From: Pontibacillus sp. HMF3514
Lineage (GTDB): Bacteria; Bacillota; Bacilli; Bacillales; BH030062
Reading direction: 5' to 3'
DNA: 64,000 bases
Assembly: GCF_009858175.1 (NCBI RefSeq)
Contig: NZ_CP047393.1
Location: 3,224,001 to 3,288,000, forward strand
Shown in pieces: positions 3,226 through 59,116 of the stretch. Every line of letters begins with the position of its first letter. Position 1 is the first letter of the stretch. Made by a program: the position numbers and the translations under genes. The notes under the pieces are model-generated. The model did no database searches and was not told the origin of the DNA. It worked only from the letters and a program-made list of their open reading frames with translations.

Positions 3226-3309
3226 TGCTTCCTCTCGGATAAGAGCTGCTTTCCCTCGAGTACGAGCTTATTTCTCTCGGCTACGAGTTGCTTTCCCACG
3301 GCTAAACCA
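3226..3309. repeat. 21-bp degenerate tandem repeat array, 4 units
   Basis: Four consecutive 21-base units start at 3226, 3247, 3268 and 3289 and share the core TTTCyCTCGgcTACGAG. The array lies directly beyond the crh terminator on the minus strand. It is one of five arrays in the window with this period. Confidence 0.75.
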
Positions 3310-3313
3310 ACTC

Positions 3314-3346
3314 AAAAAAGCTAGCCCCCATGAGGAGACTAGCTTT
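3314..3346 (-). terminator. crh terminator
   Basis: On the minus strand, stem AAAGCTAG/CTAGCTTT (3339-3346 and 3317-3324), extended by further pairs, is followed by a run of T (3314-3319). Confidence 0.85.
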
Positions 3347-3388
3347 CCAACACAAATGTTCATATTTTCACATTAATACCATAAAAAA

Positions 3389-3643
3389 CTATTCTTTTGT
3401 TACAAACTCAATAAGTACTTCAAGAGCATTCTCTTCGTCTGATCCTTTTGCTTGTAGGGTGATCTCTTCACCTGGACCGACGGCTACGCTCATTAGACCC
3501 ATTATGCTTTTGGCGTTCACGCGCTTGCCTTCTTTTTCTAGAAAAATGTCTGAGTTGAATCGATTTGCTTCTTGTACGAATTGCGCGGCTGGCCTAGCTT
3601 GCAAACCTGTACTGAGTGAGACGGTTACTGACCTTTCTACCAT
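3389..3643 (-). CDS. crh: Crh, catabolite repression HPr-like protein
   Basis: 84 residues of the HPr fold. Residue 15 is Gln in STGLQARPAA, where HPr has the phosphorylatable His; this is the hallmark of Crh, which therefore cannot carry PTS phosphate. Ser46 (NAKSIMGLMS), the HprK target, is present. P-Ser-Crh is a co-repressor of CcpA in Bacillus. The partner kinase HprK is encoded at 29971-30930. It closes the yvcI-rapZ-yvcK-whiA-crh cluster, but a terminator separates it from whiA, so it may also have its own promoter. Confidence 0.95.
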   Translation of the reverse strand: MVERSVTVSLSTGLQARPAAQFVQEANRFNSDIFLEKEGKRVNAKSIMGLMSVAVGPGEEITLQAKGSDEENALEVLIEFVTKE

Positions 3644-3696
3644 TTAAATTCTCCTCTCTCCATCATCTTTTTCTCTTTGTATATATACCTCTCATT

Positions 3697-3710
3697 GGTA
3701 AGCGCTATCA
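3697..3710 (-). promoter_or_regulatory. possible cre (CcpA) site upstream of crh
   Basis: On the minus strand TGATAGCGCTTACC matches the symmetrical cre TGAAAGCGCTTTCA at 11 of 14 positions. It lies about 55 bases upstream of the crh start. Suggestive only. Confidence 0.35.
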
Positions 3711-3719
3711 TATTTGTGT

Positions 3720-3747
3720 AAAAAAAACGCTTCTGCATGAAGAAGCG
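3720..3747 (-). terminator. whiA terminator
   Basis: 7-bp stem CGCTTCT/AGAAGCG with a 6-base loop, followed on the minus strand by eight T (3720-3727). It separates whiA from crh. Confidence 0.88.
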
Positions 3748-3800
3748 CTAAAAATGTAAGGCTATTATATCACGAAAGATTGTAAAAAGGAACGGATTCG

Positions 3801-4748
3801 TTATCCATTCGCAGTAACTTCACCTTTTCGTACTTTTTCTGCAAATTCATCAATTTTACGGAGTCGATGATTGATGCCAGATTTACTGATGTTTGATGTC
3901 ATCAGTTCACCAAGTTCTTTTAATGTTACGTCTTGATGCTGAACACGAAGCGTAGCAATTTCACGTAGTTTTTCCGGCAATGCTTCAAGGCCAACCGTTT
4001 GCTGAATGAATTTAATATTCTCAACCTGACGGAAGGCTGCACCAATTGTTTTATTTAGGTTAGCAGTCTCACAGTTTACAAGTCGATTGACCGAGTTTCT
4101 CATATCACGCATGATACGAACATCCTCAAACTTAAGAAGCGCCTGGTGAGCACCAATGATATTAAGGAATTCTGTGATTTTCTCCGCTTCTTTTAAATAA
4201 CAAATATATCCGTTACGACGTTCAATAGCACGTGCATGGAGATCGAATTGATTCATCAAGTCGCATAGTGACGTGTTGTGCTCTTCATAAAACGTGAAAA
4301 TCTCCATGTGATATGAAGATGTTTCAGGGTTGTTTACAGAGCCTCCAGCTAAAAATGCTCCACGTAAATAGGATCTGCGACAGCATGTTTTCTCCAAATA
4401 CTTGTCTGAGATGGTTCGAATGAGTGTGAAGGGTTCTTCCAAAATATAAAGATCTGTAAGGAGCTCACGTACCTTCTCCTTCATTCGAACAATATAGACG
4501 TTATTTTTCTTCAGACGCATCTTTTTTCGAACTAATAATTCAACAGGAAAATCATATAACTTTTTTATAAGTGTATAAATTCGACGTGCAATCGCTGCGT
4601 TCTCTGTTTGAACATCTAAAATATACGCACGATTCGATAATGAAAGTGATCCGTTCATTCGAATTAATGCGGCTAATTCGGATTGCACACAACATGGATC
4701 CAACTCAATGGACGTTAATTCTTTCTTAGTCTCTGAAGCAAACGACAA
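3801..4748 (-). CDS. whiA: WhiA, DNA-binding protein linked to cell division
   Basis: 315 residues from a TTG start at 4748, preceded by GGGGAGGTG six bases upstream; this gives the family N-terminus [11 protein letters not shown] and the usual length (about 316). An upstream in-frame start would add 12 unlikely residues. WhiA has an N-terminal LAGLIDADG-like domain that has lost endonuclease activity and a C-terminal helix-turn-helix ([21 protein letters not shown], residues about 275-295). In Bacillus it affects division and chromosome segregation. It sits downstream of yvcK in the conserved cluster. Confidence 0.93.
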
Positions 4749-4801
4749 CCCTTTCACCTCCCCTGCTTCGGAAACACGGGGCATGTGTTTCTTTATATTT
4801 A

Positions 4802-5779
4802 TTATTCTTTTTTATTTTGTTCAGATTGTAATAAGGATACGAGTAATTGAGCTACTTTATACGTATCATGGCGTAGTGACCTTTGATCGGGGTCAATAAT
4901 ATCGCCTTCAATGATCTCTATTCCTAATTCTAATAAGCGTTCTGTGTCATAGATAACGGGGCTTGCGTTCTCCTCCGCATACTTTTGCTGCATTGTCTCA
5001 TCAATTTCTTGATTGTGCACGACTATAGAATGTAAGCAACCTTCGCCAATGTGATCATAGATCGCTTGAATATGATCTGCTGCTGTATAACCCGTCGTTT
5101 CTCCATATTGGGTCATGACGTTACAAACGTAAACAACTTTTCCTTGCGTTTCACGTAACGCATCACCAATTTGTGAAACGATCATGTTCGGGAGGGTGCT
5201 TGTATATAAACTACCTGGTGCAACGATAACGAGGTCTGCCTGCTTCACTGCCTCTACAGCTTCTGGAAGAGGTTGAACGGGTTCAGGGCTCAAGAAAACA
5301 CGTTTTATCTTCTTGCCAGACTTCGGAATATTTGATTCACCAGACACAATTGTACCATCATCCATCTCAGCATGCAGGAACATATTTTGATTTGCAATAG
5401 GTAAAATTTTCCCTTTCACATTCAGCACTCGAGAGATCTCCGTAATGCCGTTTAGGAAATCACCTGTAACGGATGTCATTGCTGCTAACAATAAGTTACC
5501 CATAGAGTGACCAGATAATCCATTTCCGTTTGCAAAACGGTGTTGAAATAAGTCTAAAAGCATTGGCTCCGCATCCGACAAGGCTGCAATTACATTTCGT
5601 ATATCTCCTGGTGCAGGCATGGAGAGTTCATCTCGAAGACGCCCTGAACTCCCTCCATCATCTGCAACCGTTACAATGGACGTTAAATCAATCGGAAAAG
5701 ACTTTAACCCCCGTAATAACACGGGCATCCCTGTCCCTCCACCAATCACGACCACGCGTGGTAAAGATTGATCTGACAT
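4802..5779 (-). CDS. yvcK: YvcK/CofD-like gluconeogenesis factor
   Basis: 325 residues. The family signature [13 protein letters not shown] is at 13-25, followed by [13 protein letters not shown] and PGDIRNVI, which form the nucleotide-sugar binding face. YvcK proteins bind UDP-sugars and are needed for growth on gluconeogenic carbon and for normal cell shape; no enzyme activity is established. It starts 3 bases after rapZ ends, so the two are co-transcribed. Confidence 0.94.
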
Positions 5780-5782
5780 AGA

Positions 5783-6667
5783 CTATTTTCCCTTTCTTTT
5801 GTCGATATCTCGATGTGTTACATGGGTGATAAAGTCTGTAGAGAAATGCTTCGCAATATGTTCAGCTATGGCAACAGATCTGTGCTGACCACCTGTACAT
5901 CCGATAGCGATGACGAGCTGACTTTTACCCTCACGTTTATATTGAGGAAGCATTAAACCGAGTAAATCGAGTAATTTTTCTATAAACTTCTGGGTTTCAC
6001 TCCACTTAAACACATAGGATGAAACCTCTGTTGTCAATCCGGTTAATGGACGCATTTGTTCGACATAATGCGGATTCGGTAAGAAACGCACATCAAAAAC
6101 AAGATCCGCATCAATCGGTAGACCATATTTGAAGCCAAACGAAACGACCTGTACAGAAAAGACTTGTTGCGTTTTTTCTGCGTAAGATTCTAAAATACGT
6201 TCTCTTAATTCGCGTGGCTTCATATCTGTTGTATCTATAATTTGCTGCGCGCGTCCTCTTAATTCATCAAGGATCGACCGTTCCTGTTCAATCCCTTCCA
6301 TAGGTAAACCTTCAGGAGCCAAAGGGTGAGATCTTCTTGTTTCTTTATAACGAGATACGAGAGATTGATTTTCAGCATCTAAAAAGAGGATATGCTCCGT
6401 AAGCCATTCTTCTTTTCCAAGTTGGTCTAAAGCCTCAAACAATGTATCAAAAAACTCTCGACCTCTCAGGTCCATAACAAGAGCGACTTTTTGTATGTTA
6501 TTTTGCGTATCTTTCATAAGCTCTAAAAACTTTGGTAGTAAAGCTGGTGGCAAATTATCGACACAGAAAAACCCAAGGTCTTCAAAACTTTGAACAGCTA
6601 CTGTTTTCCCTGCACCGGACATTCCTGTTATGATCACAAGCTGGGTATCTTGTGGATGATTAGCCAT
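5783..6667 (-). CDS. rapZ: RapZ/YvcJ nucleotide-binding protein
   Basis: 294 residues from ATG 6667, which has GGAG nine bases upstream; a TTG two codons earlier is too close to the ribosome binding site. Walker A GMSGAGKT is at 15-22. The C-terminal domain with [10 protein letters not shown] is the RNA/metabolite-binding part known from E. coli RapZ. The Bacillus homologue YvcJ hydrolyses nucleotides and affects competence. The gene follows the Nudix gene by 14 bases. Confidence 0.93.
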
Positions 6668-6681
6668 ATACAACCGCTCCT

Positions 6682-7155
6682 TTATGATGGACTTGCTGGA
6701 TCGAGTACAACATCTATTAATTGAAAATCCGTAGTGTACATGAACGTTCCATACACCTGATCATCTGATTTGAGTATATGTTCGAAGTATTTACGGTCGC
6801 CTTCTGCCATGGGCTTTTTCAATACCTCATGAAAAGGAACCCATTCAAGCTCTCCTTCTGGACTTTCTTCTAGTAGATCACCAGAATATTGATCAGCGTA
6901 AAACGTGAACATCATCCACTCTTGAACGACATCTTTACCTTCCTTCATAACGAAGGTGAAAACCCCTCTTAGTTCAGGATTATTTACGGTAAGACCCGTT
7001 TCTTCAAAAAACTCTCGAGAGGCAGACTGCTTAACATATTCTCCGCTCTCCATCTTACCACCAGGAGCTACATACCACCCTCTTCTAGGCTTTTTAAGCA
7101 TAAGCACCTGACCTTTTTCTTTATCTTCTAAAATACAATTTGTCACACGTTGCAA
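6682..7155 (-). CDS. yvcI: Nudix hydrolase YvcI
   Basis: 157 residues from a TTG start at 7155 with GAGGTGA five bases upstream. The longer open frame from 7221 is rejected because its extra N-terminus is translated from an interspersed repeat element. The Nudix box G-x5-E-x7-R-E-F-F-E-E-x-G-L is intact (residues 33-55). The substrate is unknown, probably a nucleoside diphosphate derivative; the family includes mutator-type pyrophosphatases. It is the first gene of the yvcI-rapZ-yvcK-whiA operon. Confidence 0.9.
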
Positions 7156-7172
7156 TTTAATCACCTCATAAC

Positions 7173-7317
7173 AAAAGCGGAAGCGCCCGGGTAACGACGT
7201 ATGGACTGGACTAAACCGCATGATTTAAAGAAAACACGAAGAGCTAAGCGATTCGATGTTGACTTAACGCAAGGAGGTTTGGGAAGTCCAATAGTCGTTG
7301 GGCGCTGGAGCTGGATG
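7173..7317 (+). repeat. interspersed structured element, copy A
   Basis: About 145 bases from AAAAGCGGAAGCGCCCGG to GGCGCTGGAGCTGGATG. Inverted segments pair: GCGCCC/GGGCGC, ACGAC/GTCGT and TGGACT/AGTCCA. Related copies lie at 7604-7716, 8753-8884, 10149-10224, 47538-47683 and 50545-50818. This copy lies between the putative yvcI promoter and the yvcI start, antisense to that transcript. Confidence 0.85.
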
Positions 7318-7363
7318 TCGCTCCTCTGCTTAACTATTTAAATGAAGAGGCACTACTCCCCTT

Positions 7364-16821: not shown

Positions 16822-17009
16822 ATCGCAGCACTGGCGGGGCTATCGCCTGCATTTCGTACATGATCGCCTGAATATGAACTTCGATAGCCCGAATATCCTG
16901 AACAATCGCCCAAACCTTGATTAACAACGCCTGTATTTCACTTACAATCGCCTGAATCAGATCAGGAATCGCCCGAATGCAATCAAAAAAAGCCTGAAAC
17001 GCATCACAC
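16822..17009. repeat. 21-bp degenerate tandem repeat array, 9 units
   Basis: Units begin at 16842, 16863, 16884, 16905, 16926, 16947, 16968 and 16989 with the core ATCGCCTGAAT; a first 20-base unit starts at 16822. The last unit forms one arm of the bioB terminator. The open minus frame of 84 codons across it (7-residue repeats IQAIxxx) is a by-product of the period and has no supported start. Confidence 0.88.
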
Positions 17010-17018
17010 GTTCCAGGC
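16985..17018 (-). terminator. bioB terminator
   Basis: On the minus strand GCCTGGAACG pairs with CGTTTCAGGC (one mismatch, 7-base loop), followed by seven T. The distal arm contains the GCCTG core of the adjacent 21-bp repeats. Confidence 0.88.
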
Positions 17019-17029
17019 ACACCTCGACT

Positions 17030-18034
17030 TTACCCAATAGGAATTTCTTCTTCTTTTGTAACATAATCAATTTCGAAACCAGCATCTAAAATCATCTGGT
17101 GGTCTTTGTTCCCCTCTTGCCCTTCTGTTGTTAAGTAGTCTCCAACAAAGATCGAATTAGCTGGATATAAACTAAATGGTTGTAAACTACGTAAGTTCAC
17201 TTCTCTTCCGCCTGATACCCGAATTTCCTTACTCGGATTTATAAAACGGAAGAGGCACAGCACTTTTAAGCAGTAAGTTGGAGTCAGTTCATCAGTACCC
17301 TCTAACGGAGTACCGTCTATTGCGTGCAAAAAGTTCACCGGAATGGAATCAGCATCGAGTGCTTTTAGTGATCTTGCCATTTGCACTACGTCTTGCTTCG
17401 TTTCCTTCATTCCTACAATGACTCCTGAACAAGGTGAAATACCGACATCTTTTACTGTATCTACAGTACCAACACGATCCTCGTATGTATGAGACGTTGT
17501 AATCTGCTCATGATGATTTTCGGATGTGTTTATATTGTGGTTGTAACGATCAACGCCAGCTTCTTTAAGAGACTCTGCCTGTTCTGGGTTCAAAAGTCCT
17601 AAGCAAGCACAAATCTTCATGTCGTAATTCTGTTTAATCTCTTTAACAGCAGCGGTAACTTCGTTTAGCTCTCGTGTAGTAGGTCCACGCCCACTCGCTA
17701 CAATGCAATATGTTCCTGATTTCAATCGATGAGCTTGTTCAGCACCTTTTACGATGTCGTCTTTTTTCATCATGCGATATTTTTCAATTGGAGCATCCGA
17801 AACAATCGATTGAGCGCAATACCCACAGTTTTCAGGACAAAAGCCTGACTTCGTGTTCACGATCATATTGAGCTTCACTTTGTTTCCATAGTAATGTTTC
17901 CGGATCTTGTATGCACTATGGAGTAAATCTAGAAGTTCATCATCCTTACTATCTAGAATCGCTAAAGCTTCATCATCTGTCAGTTCATTACCTTCTAACA
18001 CTTGATCAGCAAGTTGACCCCAATTCACAACCAT
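17030..18034 (-). CDS. bioB: biotin synthase BioB
   Basis: 334 residues, radical SAM enzyme. The 4Fe-4S motif C66-x3-C70-x2-C73 (GFCPENCGYCAQS) and the downstream 2Fe-2S ligands are present. It inserts sulfur into dethiobiotin. It is in an operon with bioY only; no bioA, bioD, bioF or bioW is in the window, so the cell may depend on imported precursor here (inference). BirA should control the operon through bioY. Confidence 0.96.
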   Translation of the reverse strand: MVVNWGQLADQVLEGNELTDDEALAILDSKDDELLDLLHSAYKIRKHYYGNKVKLNMIVNTKSGFCPENCGYCAQSIVSDAPIEKYRMMKKDDIVKGAEQAHRLKSGTYCIVASGRGPTTRELNEVTAAVKEIKQNYDMKICACLGLLNPEQAESLKEAGVDRYNHNINTSENHHEQITTSHTYEDRVGTVDTVKDVGISPCSGVIVGMKETKQDVVQMARSLKALDADSIPVNFLHAIDGTPLEGTDELTPTYCLKVLCLFRFINPSKEIRVSGGREVNLRSLQPFSLYPANSIFVGDYLTTEGQEGNKDHQMILDAGFEIDYVTKEEEIPIG

Positions 18035-20497: not shown

Positions 20498-22009
20498 TTA
20501 CGCTTCTTGAAGTTCTCGCAGTTGCTGTTTTAATAACTTACCAGACGCATTTCGCGGTAGTGCATCCAGTTTTGTATAAATACGAGGGATTTTATAGCTC
20601 GCCAGTTTATCTTTCAGAAAACGCTTACAATCTTCCTCAAGATCTTCTACCTCATCCTCTAATACAACAAATGCTTTTACCGTTTCACCCCACTCTGGAT
20701 GTGGCACTCCAATGACAGCCGCTTCAGCAATAGCTGGATGAGCCGTCAACGTTTCTTCTATCTCTTTCGGGAACACGTTAACGCCACCTGAAATGATAAT
20801 GTCTTTCTTACGATCAATCACCCAAAAGTATCCGTCCTCATCTTGAACCCCCATGTCACCTGTATAGAGCCATCCGTCTTTGATCGTTTCATTCGTTTTC
20901 TCTTTATTTTTGTAATAGCCCTTCATGGTTCCCTCACCACGTAGGATGATTTCACCTATATCTCCTTGCTTAACCGGATCACCATTTTCATCAACTAGAT
21001 TGATTTCACAATGAAGCGCTGCACGCTGGCCTACACTACCTGCTTTAGCATCATGTTCCTCAGGTCTAAGTAGCGTTCCGTTTGGCCCAGCTTCCGTTGA
21101 TCCGTATAAGCACATTAAGCGATCTGTTTTAAACTGCTGTTTGACGTATTGAACCTCTTTTGTACCAAGTGGTGCTCCACCGTATAACCAGTATTCAACA
21201 GAGCTGAGATCATACTCCTGGATTTTAGGATGCTTCGCTGTCACCATATAAGCTACCGGTGCACCGAAGAAATGTGTGATTTTCTCTGATGAAATGAGAT
21301 CTAGCATTAAATCTGGAGTGAACGTTGGTGCTAAAACATGCGTTGCTCCTACGTATGTGCCAGAAACTAAAAATAGGTGCAGAGGTGCTGAATGACTGAG
21401 CGGCATGATATGCAATAGACGACTGTCGGTGTTAATCGTGAGCTCTATCGATATCATAGAAGAAATGGTTAATAGATTGCGGTTCGTAAAGAGAACCCCT
21501 TTTGGTCGTCCTGTTGTTCCAGATGTATAAAGCATCGATGCCTCATCATCCTCATGCGTTGTGGATACGATTTCTGCTTCATCACCTGAAGCCAATACAT
21601 CATCAAAAGCGAGCCACCCATCTTGTGCCGCCCCCGTTTTGATTTGAATGAGGTTCGGATCTTGGATAGAAGAAACATTATCGAAAAGGAGTTCATGTGT
21701 GAGAAAAGCTTTAGCATCACTGTGGTCAAGAATATACTCGATTTCTTCTTGTACAAATTTAGCATTGATCGGAACAATAATCGCTTCCAATCGATGCACA
21801 GCAAAATAAGTATAGAGAAACTCTGTTACGTTTGGCATATGGAGAACTATTTTATCTCCATTTCCTATCCCTCTTTTTGAAAGAGCATGAGCCAGTTTAT
21901 TTACGTTACGGTTCCATTCGCTATAAGTAATTCGCTCTCCACCAGAAACAATCGCCTCTTTGTTCGGATACTTTCTCGATTGTCTCGCTAACAGTTCAGA
22001 AATGTTCAT
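20498..22009 (-). CDS. acyl-CoA synthetase (AMP-forming)
   Basis: 503 residues from ATG 22009, with AAAGGGG upstream and overlapping the MerR gene stop. P-loop YTSGTTGRPKG, STEAGPNG, YTGDMG and the late motif RNASGKLLKQQL are complete, so adenylation and thioester formation should both work. It supplies an acyl-CoA to the dehydrogenase downstream; chain length is not evident. Confidence 0.9.
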   Translation of the reverse strand: MNISELLARQSRKYPNKEAIVSGGERITYSEWNRNVNKLAHALSKRGIGNGDKIVLHMPNVTEFLYTYFAVHRLEAIIVPINAKFVQEEIEYILDHSDAKAFLTHELLFDNVSSIQDPNLIQIKTGAAQDGWLAFDDVLASGDEAEIVSTTHEDDEASMLYTSGTTGRPKGVLFTNRNLLTISSMISIELTINTDSRLLHIMPLSHSAPLHLFLVSGTYVGATHVLAPTFTPDLMLDLISSEKITHFFGAPVAYMVTAKHPKIQEYDLSSVEYWLYGGAPLGTKEVQYVKQQFKTDRLMCLYGSTEAGPNGTLLRPEEHDAKAGSVGQRAALHCEINLVDENGDPVKQGDIGEIILRGEGTMKGYYKNKEKTNETIKDGWLYTGDMGVQDEDGYFWVIDRKKDIIISGGVNVFPKEIEETLTAHPAIAEAAVIGVPHPEWGETVKAFVVLEDEVEDLEEDCKRFLKDKLASYKIPRIYTKLDALPRNASGKLLKQQLRELQEA

Positions 22010-22398
22010 ACCTTTTCCCCTTTCAACTGGTTTAATTTTTGTTGAAACTCTCCAATCAGGCACTGCATTTCATCTCGCATCTCTGTCAACTCCCTTATCC
22101 GCTTCGACACCTCCTCTACCTTCTCCTCACCATACTCAATCGTCTTCTCAAGCTGTCTCTTTCCCGAAGGATCCTGATCGAACAACTCGACCATCTCTTT
22201 AATTTCCTCTAGCTGAAACCCATACTTCTTCCCTCGAAAGATAAGGATCAGGCGTGTTTTTTCTTTTTTTGTAAACACCCGCTGCCCGCTCTTAGTACGT
22301 TCAGGGGTAAGTAAACCAAGCTCTTCATAGTACCGAATCGTACGTGTTGTTACATCAAAGTATTTGGCTAATTCAGATATGGTGAACGTCTCTTGCAT
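22006..22398 (-). CDS. MerR-family regulator (LiuR-like)
   Basis: 130 residues. N-terminal winged helix FTISELAKYFDVTTRTIRYYEELGLL is followed by a dimerising coiled coil (about 85-125). There is no cysteine pair for metal sensing, which fits acyl-CoA-responsive members such as LiuR. It is the first gene of the ligase-dehydrogenase operon, with an ATGA overlap. A perfect palindrome in its 19-bp promoter spacer is the expected autoregulatory site. Confidence 0.9.
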   Translation of the reverse strand: MQETFTISELAKYFDVTTRTIRYYEELGLLTPERTKSGQRVFTKKEKTRLILIFRGKKYGFQLEEIKEMVELFDQDPSGKRQLEKTIEYGEEKVEEVSKRIRELTEMRDEMQCLIGEFQQKLNQLKGEKV

Positions 22399-22468: not shown

Positions 22469-22507
22469 GGTGGTTTTTGTGGTGGGGGATTCGAGGTGGG
22501 TGGGGTT

Positions 22508-22738
22508 CTATCCAGAAAGATATGTTCTCTAACCGAAATTACTAGCGGTCTATCCGAAACCATTCGCTTTTTATCCAGAATTATAAGCATTCTATCCAAA
22601 ACTATTCGCTCTCTATCCAGAATCATATCCCTGCTATCCAAAACCATACACTATCTATCCAGAATCACATGCCCGCTATCCAAAACCATATGCTCTCCAT
22701 CCAGATTCATAAGACCGCTATCCAAAATAATCCCCCTG
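22508..22738. repeat. 21-bp degenerate tandem repeat array, 11 units
   Basis: Eleven 21-base units start every 21 bases from 22508, core CTATCCAGAATCAT or CTATCCAAAACCAT. From the fourth unit on, GA and AA variants alternate strictly, giving a 42-bp higher-order period. The array begins at the T-tract of the glpD terminator, whose loop CCATCCAA repeats the core. Confidence 0.9.
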
Positions 22739-22755
22739 GCCATCCAACCAGAGGG
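22724..22755 (-). terminator. glpD terminator
   Basis: On the minus strand CCCTCTGG/CCAGGGGG (8 bp, one GU) with loop TTGGATGG, followed by ATTATTTT. Confidence 0.85.
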
Positions 22756-22765
22756 ACTACAATAT

Positions 22766-24415
22766 CTAAGCTGGATCCGGAGCGACCGCTTCTTCAAGCA
22801 ATACATCTAACTCTCGGGTGTAGGCTTCAATCTGTTCTTCTGTCCATCCATATTCTTGAGCCATAAACGTAATGACAGACTCTTTATGCTTATGCACCCA
22901 GTGAATATCAAAGAACAGGGCTCCCGTTCTTCTAACAAAAAAGTCTACAGGTTTCACAGTATGTTCGTGCTCCATACTATACGTCAGCATCGCGTACACT
23001 AATGGATCTAATCCCAAATCTTCATTTTTCATTTTATAGTATCGATGAAACACTTCATCGACATTGGCTCCATACATTTGGGTTAAGCCTCGAGCTTTTT
23101 CCTCGGATAAACTCATGGCTCTCCCTTCCTCAATTTTGCGATCCATAAAATCAGCGAAGCCGTCAGAGCCACCAACTTCTCCTCCTGCAATAGGGAGTTC
23201 CTCTGTTTGGGATTCTGGTAAGTTAAGACCTAATTGTTCAGATAGATGACCAGCCAATAAATCCACCACATTTTCAGCCATTTTACGATAGCCTGTTAGT
23301 TTTCCTCCTGCAATAGAAATTAAGCCTGATTCAGAAGTGAAGATCTCATCTTTACGAGAAATTTCAGATGGATCTTTCCCATCCTCATGAATCAACGGAC
23401 GTAATCCTGCCCAACTCGATTCAACATCACCAGCTGTAATCGATAGATCTGGGAACATAAAATCAATGCATTGCAGCAAGTAATCCCGATCATCAACGGT
23501 CATGGTTGGGTGTGCGGTGTCCCCTTCATAAACCGTATCCGTTGTCCCAACATACGTTTTTCCATCACGCGGTATAGCAAAGATCATACGTCCATCAGGT
23601 GCGTCAAAATAAATGGCCTGTTGAAGTGGAAACGTCTCACCATTAAAAACAAGGTGTACCCCCTTTGTTAAATGAAGACTCTTTCCTTCTTTAGATCCAT
23701 CTCTTTCACGAAGGTCATCCACCCAAGGTCCAGCAGCATTCACGACCTTACGCGCATAGATTTCATGTTTTTCACCATCAATCTGATCCTCTGCCACAAC
23801 ACCAGCGACTAGACCATCTTCATATAAAAAGTCGACAACTTTAACGTAGTTTTGAGCCATAGCCCCCTTTTGAACAGCTTTTTTCAACACTTCAAGCGTC
23901 AGCCTGGCATCATCTGTACGATACTCAACGTAATAGCCGCTACCTTTTAAGCCATCCTTTTTTAAAAGAGGTTCTTTGGCCAATGTCTCCTTTGGCGTAA
24001 GCATTTTTCGTCGTTCATCTCTTTTTACACGAGCTAATGTGTCGTATAGTTTCAATCCAATGTTCGTCATGTATGGACCAAAATTTCCATCCTTATAAAA
24101 CGGGAGAATCATCCATTCAGGAGTCGTTACGTGAGGACCATTCTCATAAACGATTGCACGCTCCTGCCCCACTTCAGCTACCATTTTCACTTCAAACTGT
24201 TTTAAATAGCGTAGTCCTCCGTGAACGAGCTTTGTAGAACGACTCGAAGTTCCAGCTGCGAAATCTTGCATCTCTAAAACACCGGCTGACATGCCACGGG
24301 TCACAGCATCCAGTGCGATACCCGCTCCTGTGATACCTCCCCCGATAACAAGCACGTCCAAACGCTCCTGCTCTAATTTATGATAAATCTCCGTTCGCTT
24401 ATATCCAGAAAACAT
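22766..24415 (-). CDS. glpD: aerobic glycerol-3-phosphate dehydrogenase GlpD
   Basis: 549 residues from ATG 24415, with GGAG eight bases upstream. FAD motif VIGGGITGAG is at 23-32, and the family sequences SSRSTKLVHGGLRYL and GGKLTGYR follow. It oxidises glycerol-3-phosphate to dihydroxyacetone phosphate at the membrane, feeding the quinone pool. It lies downstream of glpK, likely co-transcribed; no glpF or glpP is in the window. Confidence 0.95.
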   Translation of the reverse strand: MFSGYKRTEIYHKLEQERLDVLVIGGGITGAGIALDAVTRGMSAGVLEMQDFAAGTSSRSTKLVHGGLRYLKQFEVKMVAEVGQERAIVYENGPHVTTPEWMILPFYKDGNFGPYMTNIGLKLYDTLARVKRDERRKMLTPKETLAKEPLLKKDGLKGSGYYVEYRTDDARLTLEVLKKAVQKGAMAQNYVKVVDFLYEDGLVAGVVAEDQIDGEKHEIYARKVVNAAGPWVDDLRERDGSKEGKSLHLTKGVHLVFNGETFPLQQAIYFDAPDGRMIFAIPRDGKTYVGTTDTVYEGDTAHPTMTVDDRDYLLQCIDFMFPDLSITAGDVESSWAGLRPLIHEDGKDPSEISRKDEIFTSESGLISIAGGKLTGYRKMAENVVDLLAGHLSEQLGLNLPESQTEELPIAGGEVGGSDGFADFMDRKIEEGRAMSLSEEKARGLTQMYGANVDEVFHRYYKMKNEDLGLDPLVYAMLTYSMEHEHTVKPVDFFVRRTGALFFDIHWVHKHKESVITFMAQEYGWTEEQIEAYTRELDVLLEEAVAPDPA

Positions 24416-24466
24416 TCGAAACACTCCATTCTATCCGTACGATACCCAACCCATTCCTTTTTTAGA

Positions 24467-34934: not shown

Positions 34935-35053
34935 GGCGATAGCTCCTCTCGCACTAGTGTCTTTATATACCATACCCAATTTGATGATGAAACGTCAAAA
35001 CATCTACCTGAAAGCAAGGCTATTGCTTAAGTTTTTTACGCTCATTAGCTTTT

Positions 35054-35662
35054 GCTTCATCACTAATGAGGCGTGTTTCCTCACTTTTTCTTTCTTCTTC
35101 ATCACTAATAAGCTCTTCTTCCTCACTTATCACTCCTGCTTCTACACTAATAAGCTCTTCTTCCTCACTTATCACTCCTGCTTCTACACTTATATAGCTC
35201 TCTCCCCCACTTATCACTCCTACTTCAACACTAATAAGCTTTACTTCTTCACTTATCACTCCTACTTCAACACTAATAAGCTCTTCTTCCTCACTTATCA
35301 CTCCTACTTCAACACTAATAAGCTTTACTTCCTCACTTATCACTCCTACTTCAACACTAATAAGCTTTACTTCTTCACTTATCACTCCTACTTCAACACT
35401 AATAAGCTCTACTTCCTCACTTATCACTCCTACTTCAACACTAATAAGCTCTTCTTCCTCACTTATCACTCCCGCTTCAACACTAATAAGCTCTACTTCC
35501 TCACTTATCACTCCCGCTTCAACACTAATAAGCTCTACTTCCTCACTTATCACTCCCGCTTCAACACTAATAAGCTCTATTTCCTCACTTATCACTCCTG
35601 ATTCTACACTTATGTAGCTCTCTCCCTCACTTATTCCCCCTACTTCAACACTATCCCCCACT
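35054..35662. repeat. 21-bp degenerate tandem repeat array, 29 units without indels
   Basis: Twenty-nine units of exactly 21 bases keep phase from 35054 to 35662. Two unit types alternate: one with TTCCTCACTTATCACTCC, the other with TTCAACACTAATAAGCTC, so the higher-order period is 42 bp. No stop codon falls in several frames on both strands, which creates long spurious open frames (14-residue repeats). The array begins directly beyond the methyltransferase terminator and fills the gap to yojF. Confidence 0.95.
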
Positions 35663-35670
35663 TACCACAT

Positions 35671-35699
35671 AAAAAGACTGACCCACTTGGATCAGTCTT
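35671..35699 (-). terminator. methyltransferase gene terminator
   Basis: On the minus strand AAGACTGATCC pairs with GGGTCAGTCTT (one mismatch), followed by five T. The segment CCCACTT spanning its loop resembles the CTCACTT core of the adjacent array. Confidence 0.85.
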
Positions 35700-35704
35700 C
35701 TTCA

Positions 35705-36493
35705 TTAAGCCTTCTCAGCCACCCAGATCGTCCACCTATCTTTTTCATAAATAGGCTCACTAGGTTTATATGATGAAATAATGCTGTCTGTCATATCTCG
35801 TAGTTCTTCGTCTGTAATATCATGAAGAATGCTTCGGCCTGTTCGGTTAAGCAGATCTTCTTCTAGTTCTTCTCGGTTGTTGAACACTTTTCGAGTTTCC
35901 CAGATTGTTTTGATTTTGATTTTATGAAAGCCAGCTTGGTGTAATTCCTTTATGACAGTGTTGGAGTGGTATCTTCTATTTTTTTCTACTGTTTTCAACT
36001 GCGGAAATTCTGAAAAGAAATATCCTCGAATGTGTTCTTTACTTGGAGGTAGAAAACAATCTTCAAGTGTACGATCTTGAAGGATCACCTGTCCTCCTTT
36101 TTGTAGAATACGATGCACCTCGGTCATGTTTTCTCGAAATTGAGCACGATTTAAATGGTGAATAAGCGCTCGTTCTAGCACCATATCCGCAGAGTCACCC
36201 TGCAATGGTGTGGCTGTAGCATCCCCCAATTCAAAAGATACATCGGATAAGCTATCTAAGTGATCTTTTGCTCCTTGAAGCATGACTTCTGAGCCATCAA
36301 CACAGGTGATTTCATTTGCCCCGAGTTCGATCATGGCCTTCGTGTAAATACCTCCGCCGCAACCAATATCTACAACATGTTGATTCTGAACGGTAACTAA
36401 CGATTCAATTGCCTCTTTCCATTCTGGAGATGCTTGCCTTGTAGCGTATGTGCTCGGTTGTAATTGGTTAAAGAAATTTTGATTCAAACTCAT
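35705..36493 (-). CDS. class I SAM-dependent methyltransferase
   Basis: 262 residues. Motif I VVDIGCGGGIYTKAMIELGA (about 41-60), then ITCVDGSEVML, binds S-adenosylmethionine; ALIHHLN is the post-motif region of small-molecule methyltransferases. Substrate unknown. No operon partners. Confidence 0.85.
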   Translation of the reverse strand: MSLNQNFFNQLQPSTYATRQASPEWKEAIESLVTVQNQHVVDIGCGGGIYTKAMIELGANEITCVDGSEVMLQGAKDHLDSLSDVSFELGDATATPLQGDSADMVLERALIHHLNRAQFRENMTEVHRILQKGGQVILQDRTLEDCFLPPSKEHIRGYFFSEFPQLKTVEKNRRYHSNTVIKELHQAGFHKIKIKTIWETRKVFNNREELEEDLLNRTGRSILHDITDEELRDMTDSIISSYKPSEPIYEKDRWTIWVAEKA

Positions 36494-41590: not shown

Positions 41591-41756
41591 TCCGTTGCTG
41601 TTGAGTAATTTGTTGCGGTCAGTGAAACGGGTTGACTCCAGCGGAAGAACGGAGTGACGAGACCCCGCAGAGAGCTTGCGAACGAGGAGGCTCGGCGCTT
41701 CGTCCGCAAGAAAGCAACCAGTTCCACAGCCCGCCTATCTGTACAAAAGCAACGGA
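41591..41756. mobile_element. MITE-like element with 9-bp terminal inverted repeats
   Basis: TCCGTTGCT at 41591-41599 is inverted as AGCAACGGA at 41748-41756. The GC-rich interior has nested inverted segments (GCGG/CCGC, GAG/CTC). No reading frame. The interior resembles GC-rich extragenic elements I recall from other Bacillaceae genomes, not verified here. Confidence 0.5.
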
Positions 41757-41841
41757 ACCATACGCACTTTATCTTGAAACCAAGTCTTTAACAATAGGGG
41801 GCTAATCTTGAATACACCAAATATATCAGTAATAAAAATCA

Positions 41842-47537: not shown

Positions 47538-47683
47538 TAAAGCGCAAGCGCCCGGGTAGCAACGTATATGCAGGACTGAGCCGCAGTACGATAAAGGAAA
47601 CTCGAAGAGCAAAGCGATTCGATGTTGACTTATCGTGCGGAGGTGAGGGATGCATACTAGTTGCTGGGCGCTGGAGCTGGATG
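47538..47683 (+). repeat. interspersed structured element, copy B
   Basis: About 146 bases between ctpB and minJ, plus orientation (antisense to both). Helices GCGCCC/GGGCGC, AGCAAC/GTTGCT, ATGCA/TGCAT and CCGC..ACGATAA/TTATCGT..GCGG. Confidence 0.85.
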
Positions 47684-47701
47684 ATGCCAAAGCTCAAAAA
47701 C

Positions 47702-50544: not shown

Positions 50545-50818
50545 CAAAAGCGCGCGCCCGTTTAGCAACGAAGGGACTGGACTGAGCCCGTAGTGAGATT
50601 AACTAAACTTGCTGATTGGCAAGCCGACAGGCGCAGACAGAAGCTTAGTTGCCGTGGTACTTTCACCTAGAAATTTTAACTACGTCGAGTTCCTTCTTGG
50701 ATAAAATTTCATGTCATTAAACATATAAAGGAAACACAAATTGTGAAGCAATTTGATGTTGACTTATCTAACGGAGGCGAGGGAAGTCCCTTCGTTGATG
50801 GGAGCTGGAGCTGGATGT
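50545..50818 (+). repeat. interspersed structured element, long copy C with insertion
   Basis: About 274 bases. The ends form a perfect 14-base helix (GCAACGAAGGGACT with AGTCCCTTCGTTGA, last pairs weak). The conserved core TTTGATGTTGACTTATC is separated from the left part by about 130 extra bases. It directly follows the flavodoxin stop. Confidence 0.8.
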
Positions 50819-53789: not shown

Positions 53790-55097
53790 TTAGAAGTTGA
53801 TATATTTAGCTGGATTTACAGCATTACTCTTACTATAATTCCATGGCCCTTTGTGAAGCTCAAAGTGTAAGTGAGGTCCAGTAGAATGACCTGTTGAGCC
53901 CATATAACCTAAACGTTGGCCTTGCTTAACAGATTGTCCATTGGATACTTCACGGTTTTGCATGTGAGCATAAACGGTTGTATAAAGCTGTCCATTAACA
54001 TAGTGAGTTAAATACACTACATTTCCGTAGCTAGAAGAATAATAGGATCTTAATACAGTACCAGCTGCGGCAGCTCTAATTGGTGTAGATCCTCCATACT
54101 TACCAATATCAATGCCAGAGTGCATGGAACCCCAACGTGGACCATATCCAGAAGTTAATGGTCCATTAGCTGGTCGAATAAATCCTCCTGAATTAGAAGG
54201 CGTTGAGGAAGAAGAGTTTTTCTTTTGTGACATTTGACGCTTCTTCTCTTCTGCTCGACGTTTAGCCCGTTCAATCTCTTTTTGGATTGTTGATTGTTGA
54301 CGCTTTAGAATTGCCTCTTGTTCAGAAAGCTCCATCTTCTTCTTCTTCAGTTCTTTTTCTTCCACTTTAAGCTGTTGCATTAATTCTTGCTTTGCCGCTT
54401 TTTGTGCACCTAGATCTTTACGAAGCTGAACAAGATCCGCTTTCTGTTGTTCAAGATTTGCTTTACGCTTTTCTAGTTCTTGTTTCTTTTGTTCTACTTG
54501 CTTCTTTTTCTCTTCAAGTGACTTTTTCTCAGCCTGGTGCTTTTCCATAATTACTTTATCTTGGTCCATGATTTTCGTCACGGCTGTAGCACGGTTCAAA
54601 AAGTCTCCGAAGTTTTTCGCACCTAGAAGAACTTCTAGATAACTGATCTCTCCACCATTTTTCTGAAGGTTTCTGAGACGATCTTTGAGTAGTTCTTCAC
54701 GTTTTGCAATTCGCTTTTTTAATTCCTCAATTTCTTTCTTTAATTGAGCAATCTCTTGTTCTGTTTTCTTGATTTCTTCTTTTGTTTTCGTAATTTCTTG
54801 TTCTTTTTGACGAATCTTAGCGTTTGTTTCTTCCACTTTTCTGTCGAGTTTTTCGATTAAATTGTTGATTCGTCTTTGTTCTGCACGGTTTGCGTTAATT
54901 TCAGATTGTGTTTGGCTTTTACTCTTTTTTGTTTGATCCGCTTGGTTATTTAAAGATTTATTTTTCTTTTTCAGTGCTTCAATTTCTTTTTTAATATCTT
55001 CTAGTGTGGTGTTTGCCAGGGCTTTTTCTGAAGTTGAAACTAACGTTACTGAAAATACGAGTGTGAACACAAATAATACACCAATCAGCCTTTTCAT
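53790..55097 (-). CDS. coiled-coil M23 peptidoglycan endopeptidase (EnvC/PcsB-like)
   Basis: 435 residues. Signal peptide (1-28, ending KALA), two long coiled coils (about 30-135 and 185-295) with a break at YLEVLLGAKNFGDFLNR, and a C-terminal LytM/M23 domain with HSGIDIG and HLHFELH zinc motifs intact. The layout matches hydrolases activated through FtsEX. In B. subtilis the FtsEX partner is CwlO, which has the same coiled coils but an NlpC/P60 domain; here an M23 domain takes its place, directly downstream of ftsX. Confidence 0.92.
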   Translation of the reverse strand: MKRLIGVLFVFTLVFSVTLVSTSEKALANTTLEDIKKEIEALKKKNKSLNNQADQTKKSKSQTQSEINANRAEQRRINNLIEKLDRKVEETNAKIRQKEQEITKTKEEIKKTEQEIAQLKKEIEELKKRIAKREELLKDRLRNLQKNGGEISYLEVLLGAKNFGDFLNRATAVTKIMDQDKVIMEKHQAEKKSLEEKKKQVEQKKQELEKRKANLEQQKADLVQLRKDLGAQKAAKQELMQQLKVEEKELKKKKMELSEQEAILKRQQSTIQKEIERAKRRAEEKKRQMSQKKNSSSSTPSNSGGFIRPANGPLTSGYGPRWGSMHSGIDIGKYGGSTPIRAAAAGTVLRSYYSSSYGNVVYLTHYVNGQLYTTVYAHMQNREVSNGQSVKQGQRLGYMGSTGHSTGPHLHFELHKGPWNYSKSNAVNPAKYINF

Positions 55098-56129: not shown

Positions 56130-56805
56130 AGCCGTATTCACCTCGTTCTTCATCACGGAATATACGACCATTTTCTACTGCGATAACACGCTTTTTAATG
56201 GTATTAACAATCTCTTTGCTGTGTGTAGCCATGATGATGGTAGTTCCTCTAGCGTTAATCTCTTCAAATATTCTCATAATCTCCCAAGAAGTCTCGGGAT
56301 CAAGGTTACCTGTTGGTTCATCAGCAATCATCATTTTTGGCCGATTTACAATCGCACGTGCAATCGATACCCTCTGCTGTTCTCCACCAGAAAGCTCGTC
56401 CGGAATATGCCTAGCCTTATTTTTCAGCTTAACTAGATCAAGCACTTCCATTACACGACGACGAATGTTTTTCGGAGACTCCTCTATTACTTCTAACGCA
56501 AAAGCAATATTTTCATAGACTGTAAGCCTTGGTAAAAGCTTAAAATCCTGGAATACAACACCAATATCACGGCGAAGATGCGGGACTTTTCGCTCTTTTA
56601 ATTTATCTAAATTAATGCCATTAATAGCAATAGAGCCTTTGGTTGGCTTTTCTTCACGAAACATCATACTAATTAATGTGGATTTTCCTGCACCACTTGG
56701 TCCAACGACATACACAAACTCTCCTTGATTAATGGAGAGATTGATCCCATTTAAGGCGGTCACACCGTTGGGGTAAGTTTTGTACACGTCCTTCATCTCA
56801 ATCAT
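56119..56805 (-). CDS. ftsE: cell-division ABC transporter ATPase FtsE
   Basis: 228 residues. Walker [10 protein letters not shown], signature [14 protein letters not shown] and Walker [12 protein letters not shown] are intact. With FtsX it couples ATP hydrolysis in the cell to activation of the wall hydrolase outside. Confidence 0.96.
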
Positions 56806-56906
56806 AAACTAACCACCTATATCTATAGTTGTAAGTCTTCGCTGTTGTCAATTTTGACAAAAGATGCGTGAATATGCAAATAACGACTCGTTTTCACGTC
56901 TTTACC

Positions 56907-56912
56907 ATTATA
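56907..56912 (-). promoter_or_regulatory. possible extended -10 promoter of ftsEX
   Basis: TGTTATAAT on the minus strand, about 100 bases before ftsE; no good -35. The rest of the 315-base gap to cccB holds only the cccB terminator and AT-rich sequence. Confidence 0.5.
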
Positions 56913-57043
56913 ACATCTTATTTCTGTTTTTTTAGACAAAAAATTATTACATTTTCGTTTCAAAATTTCTGTAAAAGTGTTGATATATGACAAAAGAATC
57001 AAACTTTTAATCGTTTTTATAAAAAGTATAGGAAGAGACAATT

Positions 57044-57087
57044 AAAAAAGCCCAAACAATAGGAGTCAGACCTATCATTTGAGCTTT
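57044..57087 (-). terminator. cccB terminator
   Basis: A 17-base imperfect stem (AAAGCTCAAATGATAGG with its near-complement) around a 7-base loop, followed by six T on the minus strand. Confidence 0.82.
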
Positions 57088-57120
57088 GTTTAACTTATGG
57101 ATTCTTGTAAAAAATGATTC

Positions 57121-57522
57121 TTATTTCTTAGTAGCTAACCAAGCAGCAATTGTTTCTGCTTCTTTACCTGAAGCCATGTTGCCAGGCATTGAACCCTTAC
57201 CATTTTTGATAATGTTTAAGATCTCATCCTTACCATACTTGGAACCGATCGTTTGAAGGTTCGGACCATTGTTTCCGGATAGATCTGCACCGTGACAACC
57301 TGCACAGCTTTGCTTGAAGTACTTTTTCGCTTCAGAAGCATTCACACCGCCAGCTGTTTCGCCGCCGCCATCACCTGTGTCACCATTGTCTCCAGTTTGT
57401 TCTTCTGTTTGATCTTCTCCGCCATTTTCAGTAGCGTCATCGGCACCGTTATCCCCACCGCCGCCACATGCGCCAAGTACAAGAGCAGAACCAAACAATA
57501 CGGCTAATAATTGCTTTTTCAT
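57121..57522 (-). CDS. cccB: cytochrome c551, membrane lipoprotein CccB
   Basis: 133 residues. Lipobox LVLGAC with the lipid-anchored Cys19, an acidic Gly/Asp/Glu linker (20-60), then one haem c site C73-A-G-C76-H77 and axial Met in MPGNM. Electron carrier on the outer face of the membrane. In B. subtilis cccB also stands directly upstream of ftsEX. Confidence 0.94.
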
Positions 57523-57582
57523 TTGTTAGCATCCCCCTAACTAGTGTTTAATAAAAAAACGCTCAAGGATATTATAACCAAC

Positions 57583-58452
57583 TTAGCCGTTTTTAAAACC
57601 CTCTCCTAGAACCTCTGCAGCATCCATAGCTATGACGAACGCACTAGGATCAATCCTTTTGACGGTTTGTGTCAATTTGGTGAATTCACTCTGTTCGACA
57701 ACACACATAATAATATTGCGATCTTCATTTGTGTATCCACCGACACCACTTAAAACCGTAGCACCTCGATCGATTTCATGAAATATTCCCAATCTCACTT
57801 TCTCAACCTCTTGTGAAATAATCATGACATTTTTCGATCTGTTAAAACCGACTTGAACAACATCAATTGTACGACTTGTTGCAAACAGTCCAATTAATGC
57901 AAACAGACCTTTTTCTACATCGAAGACAATTGCTGCTGTAAGTACAATCATGCCATCAACCATAGCAATACATAATCCAAGTGGAATATGTGTGTATTTA
58001 TGAATGATTTGCGCTAGAAGGTCGACACCACCTGTAGAAGCACGACCTCTGAACACGATGCCTAGCCCAAGACCAACACCCATACCACCAAAAATCGCAG
58101 CTAATAGCGCATTGTCAGTAGCCGGCTCAATTCCGCTTGTGAGTTTTACGAAGAACGGGAGAGCAATCGTACCTACAAGTGATTTCATGCCGAAGTTTTT
58201 ACCTAGTATCAGTACCCCCGATATGAAAAGCGGGATGTTCAGGGCCCACTGGACATAAGCTGGATCCCAGTTAAAAAGCCCTTTAAGGATCGTACTGATA
58301 CCCGCTACTCCGCCAGAGGCAATTTCATTAGGAAGTAAGAAAATATTAAATGCAGTCGCAACAAAAGCGGAACCAATAATAACGAACATATATTCAATTA
58401 AATGCCTTAGCCACGTAGGCATCGGCTCTCTTCGATAACGTTTCATCATCAT
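57583..58452 (-). CDS. yvjA: YitT-family membrane protein YvjA
   Basis: 289 residues from ATG 58452, seven bases after GAGGTG; the extra 31 residues of the longer frame are not family-like. Five to six membrane segments (FNIFLLPNEIASGGVAGIST, GLGLGIVFRGRASTGGVDLLAQ) and a C-terminal DUF2179 domain (about 210-285). Function unknown. Same position next to cccB as in B. subtilis. Confidence 0.9.
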   Translation of the reverse strand: MMMKRYRREPMPTWLRHLIEYMFVIIGSAFVATAFNIFLLPNEIASGGVAGISTILKGLFNWDPAYVQWALNIPLFISGVLILGKNFGMKSLVGTIALPFFVKLTSGIEPATDNALLAAIFGGMGVGLGLGIVFRGRASTGGVDLLAQIIHKYTHIPLGLCIAMVDGMIVLTAAIVFDVEKGLFALIGLFATSRTIDVVQVGFNRSKNVMIISQEVEKVRLGIFHEIDRGATVLSGVGGYTNEDRNIIMCVVEQSEFTKLTQTVKRIDPSAFVIAMDAAEVLGEGFKNG

Positions 58453-58823
58453 AGAGATACACCTCATTCTTTCTCGGGAGTGTGGGGTGCGTGTTGGGGA
58501 TGAGGCGCTTGGGCGGGCGCTACGGTGTTTGGTGCAGCGCAACACAAAAGCATTAAAGCACCTTTACACTCTCTTGTTTTGATTGTTTACATAGATGTCC
58601 AGATTCACTCATTTTAAAATTTTCTTTATAAAACACATAAAGTCCGATATGGAGTATAGCACGGGAAGAAAATGGTGTAAACGACACTATGTTGCCGCGT
58701 TATTGTGGTGAAGTAGTGGTGTGTTGGTGAAGATCGAGGAGGTTTTGGGGGAGATGAGGGGATTCCCGCTGGGGCGGGAATCTTATTATGCTTTATGGGC
58801 TTTTCAAGGCGGGAGGGGGCCTG
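58453..58823. other. yvjA leader and promoter region
   Basis: About 370 bases without a gene. It contains the yvjA promoter (58653-58681) and a roughly 190-base leader with a small GC-rich hairpin around 58505-58525. Nothing else was recognised before the 21-bp array. Confidence 0.4.
58653..58681 (-). promoter_or_regulatory. yvjA promoter
   Basis: On the minus strand TTTACA (58676-58681), 17 bases, TATACT (58653-58658), with TG one base before the -10. Confidence 0.75.
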
Positions 58824-59116
58824 GCTTCCTCACTAATTCTGTTGACTTCTTCACTTATTTGTACAACTTCTTCACTTATTTGTACAACTTCCTCACTTAT
58901 CTACTTCGCTTCTTCACTTATTTGCACAACTTCCTCACTTATCTGGTGCGCTTCTTCACTTATTTGTACTACTTCCTCACTTATCTGCTACTCTTCTTCA
59001 CTTTTTTACACTACTTCCTCACTTATCTACTGCGCTTCTTCACTTATTTACCTACTTCCTCACTTATCTGCTGTGCTTCTTCACTTATACATACAACTCT
59101 TTCACTCATTTGCTAC
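58824..59116. repeat. 21-bp degenerate tandem repeat array, 14 units
   Basis: Units start every 21 bases from 58824, with one 20-base unit at 59055. Core TTCCTCACTTATCT alternates with TTCTTCACTTATTT, giving a 42-bp period. The core is the same as in the 35-kb array. The last unit overlaps the final codons of the NERD gene. Confidence 0.92.

Follow-up and report, generated by a model that had tools for sequence, protein, structure and literature searches.

A 64-kb stretch of a Pontibacillus chromosome (the window; bases 3224001 to 3288000 of the single 3,976,892-bp contig of genome G000) contains five arrays in which a short core sequence is repeated at a step of 21 bp, close to the 3′ ends of genes. 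The genome is that of a Pontibacillus close to Pontibacillus marinus, the glpD-like protein encoded beside array 3 having 96% identity to P. marinus. Comparison of the two species showed that the core letters and the spacing of one class of array, class C, are under purifying selection while the linkers between cores drift.

A first-pass annotation of the window had described five arrays with a common 21-bp step, holding 4, 9, 11, 29, and 14 units. We found all five where it had placed them, with a step of 21 nearly throughout, and its counts were correct to within one weak edge unit. It had distinguished at least three cores, one of them shared by arrays 4 and 5, and we sorted the window cores into four classes. 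Scanning the 64 kb at periods of 7 to 99 returned seven periodic segments, namely the five arrays and two segments within one gene (54425-54829), compared with 1 segment per 600 kb in a base-shuffled control. The strongest period of each of the five arrays was 21 or 42. A core parse seeded at 21, with steps of 14 to 28 allowed, found 4, 8, 11, 28, and 13 cores in arrays 1 to 5, and every step was 21 except for a single 20 in array 5. A looser parse gave array 2 a ninth core, weak and at step 20. The arrays, their neighboring genes, and the called intrinsic terminators are as follows.

2120..3076, minus strand: ABC-transporter ATPase gene, neighbor of array 1
3226..3310, minus strand: array 1, class D core, CCGAGNGAAA in gene sense, 4 units of 21
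3312..3346, minus strand: called intrinsic terminator of the crh-like gene, 2 bp from array 1
3389..3643, minus strand: crh-like gene
16822..17020, plus strand: array 2, class C core, ATCGCCTGAAT on the plus strand, opposite to the flanking genes, 8 to 9 cores, step 21
16984..17018, minus strand: called terminator of the bioB-like gene, its 3′ arm being the first core of array 2
17030..18034, minus strand: bioB-like gene
22501..22738, minus strand: array 3, class B core, TTYTGGATAG in gene sense, 11 cores, step 21
22720..22760, minus strand: called terminator of the glpD-like gene, extending into array 3
22766..24424, minus strand: glpD-like gene
35049..35660, minus strand: array 4, class A core, AAGTGAGGAAG / TTAGTGTTGAAG in gene sense, 28 to 29 cores, step 21
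35668..35700, minus strand: called terminator of the methyltransferase-domain gene, 15 bp from array 4
35705..36493, minus strand: methyltransferase-domain gene
58820..59120, minus strand: array 5, class A core, 13 to 14 cores, steps of 21 except one of 20
59106..60107, minus strand: NERD-domain gene, its last ~15 bases overlapped by array 5

The first-pass annotation had each array beginning at or just after the 3′ end of a minus-strand gene. More exactly, arrays 1 to 4 start behind the terminator hairpin of that gene. Array 5 runs into the end of the NERD frame; no terminator was called for it, and a 7-bp hairpin at 59126-59144 sits inside the gene end. The linkers of array 2 are random (identity, 0.30), and the units of array 4 have been homogenized as 42-bp dimers. 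Elsewhere in the window, the gene at 53790-55097 has a 21-bp coding period at 54425-54829, perhaps reflecting coiled-coil heptads.

Eight class C arrays were matched one to one with arrays of P. marinus, by eye from order and flanks; the P. marinus arrays had been located through the core pattern, which biases the set toward kept cores. Between the two species, divergence was 4.2% in the six invariant core columns, 13.1% in the core as a whole, 31.6% in the linkers, and 20.3% in the flanks (core versus linker, P = 2e-13), with only units that aligned at 9 or more of the 11 core positions counted and 16 gap positions set aside. Third codon positions of nearby genes diverged by 19.7%. Orthologous spacings were equal in 46 of 49 cases, including four inherited 20-bp steps, and the three exceptions were confined to the terminal steps of arrays; one is probably an alignment fault. 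Nonarray intergenic DNA of the species pair carries 28 indels per 279 substitutions, a neutral rate that omits two intergenic pairs of less than 70% identity. At that rate, the 150 linker substitutions should have been accompanied by ~15 indels, whereas three spacing differences were seen (P = 2e-4 for three or fewer).

The first-pass annotation had proposed a phased element with selection on spacing more than on sequence. A phased element is supported, since class C has kept both its core and its two-turn spacing against P. marinus, and selection on spacing is borne out by the 46 identical spacings. The ranking is contradicted, because the invariant core letters evolve slowest of all (4%, versus 32% for linkers and 20% for flanks). 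Over longer times it regains some ground: a spacing of 20 to 21 bp recurs across genera, whereas the two cores that we tracked are private to one or two species. The other proposal made there, a generating mechanism with a 21-nt step, leaves unexplained the kept cores, the randomized linkers, and the 20-bp steps that are tolerated and inherited. The kept core and spacing, the random linkers, the 20-bp steps, and stop codons occurring at a shuffled rate (see below) point to selection on a DNA motif and on its two-turn phase and away from a reading frame or plain slippage, and we infer that this result carries from class C to the other classes. Arrays 1, 3, 4, and 5 occupy the same places in P. 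marinus and belong there to the same classes, with changed copy number and linkers: array 1 has ~13 units, array 3 has 6 cores, and array 4 has ~19 units with other linkers.

Beyond the window, we surveyed 1.6 Mb of stretches of the genome, 79 systematic 20-kb samples among them. This survey and the window together gave 26 arrays of the kind studied here, two of them from a stretch (L110) chosen because it bears arrays. Nineteen came from the systematic samples, which extrapolates to ~50 arrays per genome. The first-pass annotation had recognized that many different periods would speak against it; instead, 29 of the 38 intergenic arrays have a step of 20 to 21 bp, being the 26 arrays and three copies of a dispersed element, F, which were excluded from the 26. 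The remaining nine have periods of 12, 50, 52, 52, 84, 86, 98, 105, and 125, the 84 being a tRNA pair. Counted as intergenic were six arrays with a called frame almost wholly inside them and one (L097:19381) that is 42% covered by a gene call. Element F (L047:819-911, L048:19762-19959, and L085:8982-9409) consists of a conserved stretch (ccgttatatggcagt...) and then a 21-bp array of GACGGAATCGCTCGGGTAG. Unlike the other arrays, it appears to have been copied together with its flank.

The array core is ~8 to 11 bp long, and the cores fall into at least five classes, which were grouped by eye. In gene sense, these are class A, AAGTGAGGAAG; class B, TTYTGGATAG; class C, AYCGCCYGNAT; class D, CCCGAGCGAAAGC; and class E, near CACGCCCGAGAAGGAG. 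At L092, there is a 20-bp array with TTTGAGTGAT. Pattern searches of the whole genome located ~10 arrays of class A (one being a single weak match), 6 of class B, ~16 of class C, and 3 of class D, the class D pattern missing other D arrays. There were 58 matches for class B, 74 for class C, and 22 for class D, and the reversed controls gave 0.

Steps in the 26 arrays were 21 in 252 of 259 cases, and the seven others were three of 20, one of 18 (L095), one of 19 (L053), and two of 15 (L092). For class C, 174 well-matching cores in 24 arrays of the two species gave 148 steps, with 23 of 20, 122 of 21, and 3 of 22, when a core needed at least five of the six fixed letters and only steps of 18 to 23 were counted. 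Linker-to-linker identity was 0.298 over 122 linkers of 10 bp, compared with 0.303 expected from column composition. Some arrays (L279, L281, L285, and L289) switch strictly between steps of 21 and 20 for most of their length, a pattern that would disrupt any reading frame. The near fixity of the class C letters within a species is partly circular, since the cores were filtered on them; the comparison between species is less so.

The tie to gene 3′ ends that the first-pass annotation drew from five arrays extends to the larger set. In 17 of the 26 arrays, an edge lay between −25 and +20 bp of the 3′ end of a terminator pointing toward the array. Random placements in nondivergent gaps, drawn under two pool rules in two sets of 2000, gave means of 4.1 to 4.4 and maxima of 10 and 12, so that none reached 17. 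Terminators near arrays formed 23 downstream and 6 upstream pairs, a count in which one terminator may figure repeatedly. Twenty-four arrays lay in gaps between called genes, 23 of them in co-directional or convergent gaps (L035 and L050:13213 were not placed). Arrays were borne by 17 of 607 co-directional, 6 of 128 convergent, and 1 of 191 divergent gaps (divergent versus the rest, P = 0.04), with gap types approximate because gene calling overlooked two or more genes next to arrays of the window (the MerR-type gene at 22006-22398 and the NERD gene at 59106-60107). The sole array in a divergent gap follows the terminator of a T-box leader and therefore lies inside a leader. In L110 (11552-11779 and 11822-12033), a class A array stands behind the terminator of a T-box leader, with the next gene 42 bp farther on.

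The sequence around the arrays is also distinctive. Read in gene sense across the 26 arrays, the 20 bases upstream are G rich and C poor, and ~80 bases downstream are C rich and G poor. The array-free gaps that were examined (116 and 203) lacked this framing, which might reflect Rho loading or have been left by strand-biased mutation. The coding score of the upstream gene, a poor proxy for expression, did not differ (median of 0.342 for 24 genes versus 0.334; P = 0.89).

The replication skew of G000 turns at ~1.95 Mb. Among the 35 arrays of classes A to D found by pattern, only 1 lies in the terminus quarter, which was picked after the map had been seen (P = 5e-4), and 12 lie in the terminus half (P = 0.045). 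In the samples, an array was present in 0 of 95 suitable gaps of the terminus quarter versus 19 of 327 elsewhere (P = 0.01), and the largest array-free stretch measured 0.93 Mb (P = 0.004). The leading strand carried the cores of 8 of 10 class A arrays, 15 of 16 class C arrays, and all 3 class D arrays.

We looked in other genomes to determine how far the cores and the spacing are shared. The class C pattern had 74 matches in G000 and 84 in P. marinus, and seven other genomes of the family had none or one. Another Pontibacillus (G005) has the same architecture with a private core, GACGTCGAGAA, which gave 141 matches there (control, 0). Across 60 other genomes of the order, this core matched no more than once per genome, and its reversed control matched up to three times. 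Among the G005 matches listed there were 13 arrays, two of them resting on one match; all 13 were on the leading strand, and none was in the terminus quarter. Eighty loci around glpD, two of them from Pontibacillus, held 32 intergenic arrays, with periods of 20 to 22 (16 arrays), 41, 42, or 63 (4 arrays), 52 to 53 (6 arrays), and other values (6 arrays), once arrays containing runs of N, and gene calls largely contained in arrays, had been removed. All 16 coding arrays at these loci had periods in multiples of three. Together with the 20-bp steps, these periods speak for helical over codon spacing in the intergenic arrays. In Ornithinibacillus and Lentibacillus, arrays with other cores lie directly behind glpD.

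In 25 arrays of other genomes, picked for a period of 20 to 21 bp or a multiple of it and parsed with a seed of 20 or 21, the 255 steps between well-scoring cores were 21 in 206 cases, 20 in 38, 22 in 3, and other lengths in 8. No array with a period of 20 to 21 bp was called in the 540 kb of stretches from G014, G017, G019, and G021, members of the same order. The array trait is thus patchy across the order. Arrays of other periods were seen as well. Intergenic arrays of 52 to 53 bp (five helical turns; several with inverted ends) occur in other genera at L118:19242-19394, L136:6880-7033, L136:9428-9696, L156:2577-2745, L176:3389-3508, and L178:20814-21225. Another Pontibacillus has 37-bp intergenic arrays (L232:2934-3068, L233:3293-3418, and L233:4657-4776), and G012, a distant member of the same order, has a superperiod of 103 to 104 bp, close to five steps of 20 to 21, at L258:13090-13541 and L260:17748-18055.

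On balance, we favor the idea that the arrays are phased docking strips for sequence-specific DNA-binding proteins at the ends of transcription units. A nonpalindromic core of 8 to 11 bp every 20 to 21 bp would amount to one site for every two turns of B-DNA, which would align all cores along one face of the helix and let the subunits bound to them touch. The protein would bind cooperatively in a row, and the row appears to matter because single cores outside arrays occur near background frequency. The exception is the loose class C motif, which is in intergenic excess (22 versus 7 for its reverse), perhaps in short undetected arrays. The strip would do its job at the end of transcription units, most likely as a boundary at which leftover polymerase, and the supercoiling between neighboring units, are stopped or insulated. 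A genome with several core classes would need more than one binding protein or a set of paralogues, and species-private cores would mean that the reading head of the protein and its sites change together while the geometry of the filament stays constant. The protein, its cooperativity, and its role are inferred.

A number of observations weigh against this reading. The distance window of the edge test was chosen after the distances had been seen, and mere nearness counts for little: a called terminator is found within 30 bp of 19 of the 26 arrays, a figure that 59 of 1000 random placements in nondivergent gaps reach (with divergent gaps pooled, the null has a mean of 12.8 and a maximum of 19 in 200 placements). 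Two arrays (L052 and L059:19228) sit between stop codon and terminator, and one is in a T-box leader. The one-to-one comparison covers class C, with arrays found and units filtered by core. Copy number varies freely between the species (4 versus 13, 11 versus 6, and 28 to 29 versus ~19, P. marinus second), and at four of the five window arrays both species retain some open frame. The 96 matches of the class A pattern compare with 17 for its reversed control, only 2 of the 6 class B arrays carry their motif on the leading strand, and the step parse, seeded at 21, misreads L092 (true step, 20) and L053 (20 to 21). Finally, the binding protein is a postulate.

The main rival is suggested by the chromosome map. 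The arrays may be chromosome-organizing sites on which proteins mark or tether the chromosome everywhere except the terminus, and siting behind terminators would then be the safest spot for a protein strip, away from polymerase. Noc has ~70 sites, absent from the terminus (PMC4331003). The arrays resemble the sites of Noc in Bacillus subtilis and of SlmA in Escherichia coli in that there are tens of them across the chromosome, an extrapolated ~50 in this genome, with a single array of 35 in the terminus quarter and none among the 13 listed in G005. Noc sites differ from them in being single and palindromic, whereas the arrays are built of direct, nonpalindromic cores and of several unrelated ones in the same genome; genes of the terminus region may also be younger, and the test of that region was set after the map had been seen. 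We regard this account as possible, though rather unlikely. A further rival makes no appeal to function: the arrays would be neutral minisatellites, amplified from a 21-bp duplication by slippage or unequal exchange. Changed copy numbers, units homogenized as 42-bp dimers, and decay at the edges are what slippage typically leaves behind, and some arrays are nearly perfect (L101:4064-4580). Neutral decay would be even over the unit and accompanied by indels, whereas diverged class C arrays keep core and spacing amid random linkers, an unevenness that weakens the idea for this class, and slippage would not pick 20 to 21 bp in many genera. A neutral origin therefore seems improbable to us.

Three other explanations turn on the arrays as topological, RNA, or coding elements. 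Repetitive extragenic palindromic (REP) sequences sit at 3′ ends. They and the bacterial interspersed mosaic elements (BIMEs) that they form have many intergenic copies and serve as sites for DNA-binding proteins (PMC2817692); gyrase cleaves BIME-2, and the E. coli gyrase motif is flanked by a 10.75-bp GC periodicity (PMC6379681). The arrays, too, are intergenic, many-copy, and at the 3′ ends of transcription units, and this siting and their helical phasing are what might be expected of BIME-2-like supercoil sinks that draw gyrase behind transcription units. A palindromic REP unit of 20 to 40 bp, alternating in BIMEs, is not what they contain; they have direct nonpalindromic cores, random linkers, and two-turn spacing. 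Autocorrelation over the 26 arrays was 0.04 to 0.06 for GC and 0.00 to 0.01 for AA/TT at lags of 10 to 11, versus 0.47 and 0.37 at lag 21. The arrays thus have one patch per two turns and not per turn, the gyrase-like one-turn periodicity is absent, and an exact private core would be needless, which makes sinks very unlikely. An RNA element that acts in readthrough or leader transcripts, either as the target of an RNA-binding protein or by forming hairpins, seems hardly more probable. The array in the T-box leader and the ~80-nt C-rich, G-poor tract, which resembles a Rho loading site, would suit it, as would the two of 10 array pieces that fold better than shuffles (array 4, z = −9.2; L052, z = −2.6). 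The other eight fold no better (z = −1.3 to +1.4), so that a fold common to the pieces was rejected, and strict two-turn spacing has no reason in single-stranded RNA. Searches for RNA families gave no match at the gathering threshold in the window and, in one other region scanned, only the T-box leader near the array. That the arrays encode repeat proteins or coiled coils of seven-residue units is the least credible of the explanations. Twenty-one base pairs make seven codons, there are long open frames (213 amino acids over array 4), and 23 of the 26 arrays have at least one, as do most window arrays in both species; open frames in short arrays are easily given by repeated cores. The first-pass annotation had argued against translation, and for class C its view was upheld, with stop codons in 15 to 68% of units, depending on the frame, in six frames, matching column shuffles. 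Three of the 26 arrays have no open frame, array 4 has none in P. marinus, and 20-bp steps occur. Among six array frames, no match above the Pfam cutoff was found, nor, by eye, a clear AGGAGG-type site upstream. We rejected coding on the stop rates, the 20-bp steps, and the broken orthologous frame.

Other known systems share single features with the arrays. Plasmid iterons and ParR-type centromere repeats are direct, ~20 to 22 bp apart, and read by a protein that assembles in a row, with one or two such clusters per plasmid. The arrays likewise have direct repeats spaced by whole helical turns (252 of 259 steps of 21). They differ in occurring by the dozen, on the chromosome, behind terminators, and with several private cores, and the window neighbors are crh-, bioB-, glpD-, methyltransferase-, and NERD-type genes in place of plasmid replication or partition genes. 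A plasmid origin was rejected, the two arrays searched (one each of classes A and D) matching no plasmid. So was a viral origin: exact two-core patterns matched 7 (class C), 0 (class A), and 2 (class B) viral contigs, probably by chance because there was a single match per contig. CRISPR arrays have repeats of ~23 to 50 bp, spacers of similar or greater length, and a leader. They resemble our arrays in alternating a constant core with a variable spacer of fixed length, but a core of 8 to 11 bp and a linker of 9 to 10 bp are far below CRISPR sizes.

Two surveys also bear on the arrays. The SPADE survey of 7,006 prokaryotic genomes left interspaced DNA repeats without CRISPR annotation unexplored and found an excess of repeat periods in multiples of three even in the absence of protein repeats (PMC6344855), a rule that the 20-bp steps here break. 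The available text of that paper contains neither "21 bp" nor "21-bp" and describes neither selection on core and linker nor a link to terminators (PMC6344855). A survey of DNA structures defined close direct repeats as an 8-mer present four or more times with gaps of up to 24 nt and found them overrepresented in about half of psychrophiles and mesophiles (PMC4060949). Its pattern would catch the arrays; in the parts available, it gives no spacing, core, or function. In a literature search with most subscription journals outside its scope, no described family fits such arrays, and neither does PMC4641356, as far as its available text goes. It is the element class that we regard as new; the principle of phased binding sites is old. 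Bacterial intergenic tandem repeats are usually dismissed as slippage. Here, comparison between species reveals simultaneous selection on a word and a distance, and dozens of sites in each genome share an architecture in which the word differs between congeners while the distance stays constant. Should these strips prove to be read by proteins, an entire level of organization, at transcription ends or of the chromosome, would have gone unnoticed so far. More tentatively, many Bacillales may carry an undescribed class of bacterial element in which species-private cores are read by fast-evolving, filament-forming proteins and serve transcription boundaries and chromosome layout.

The window also holds dispersed repeats of ~110 to 280 bases, at 7173-7321, 41622-41763, 47539-47689, and 50576-50812, that match several sites on one P. 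marinus contig.

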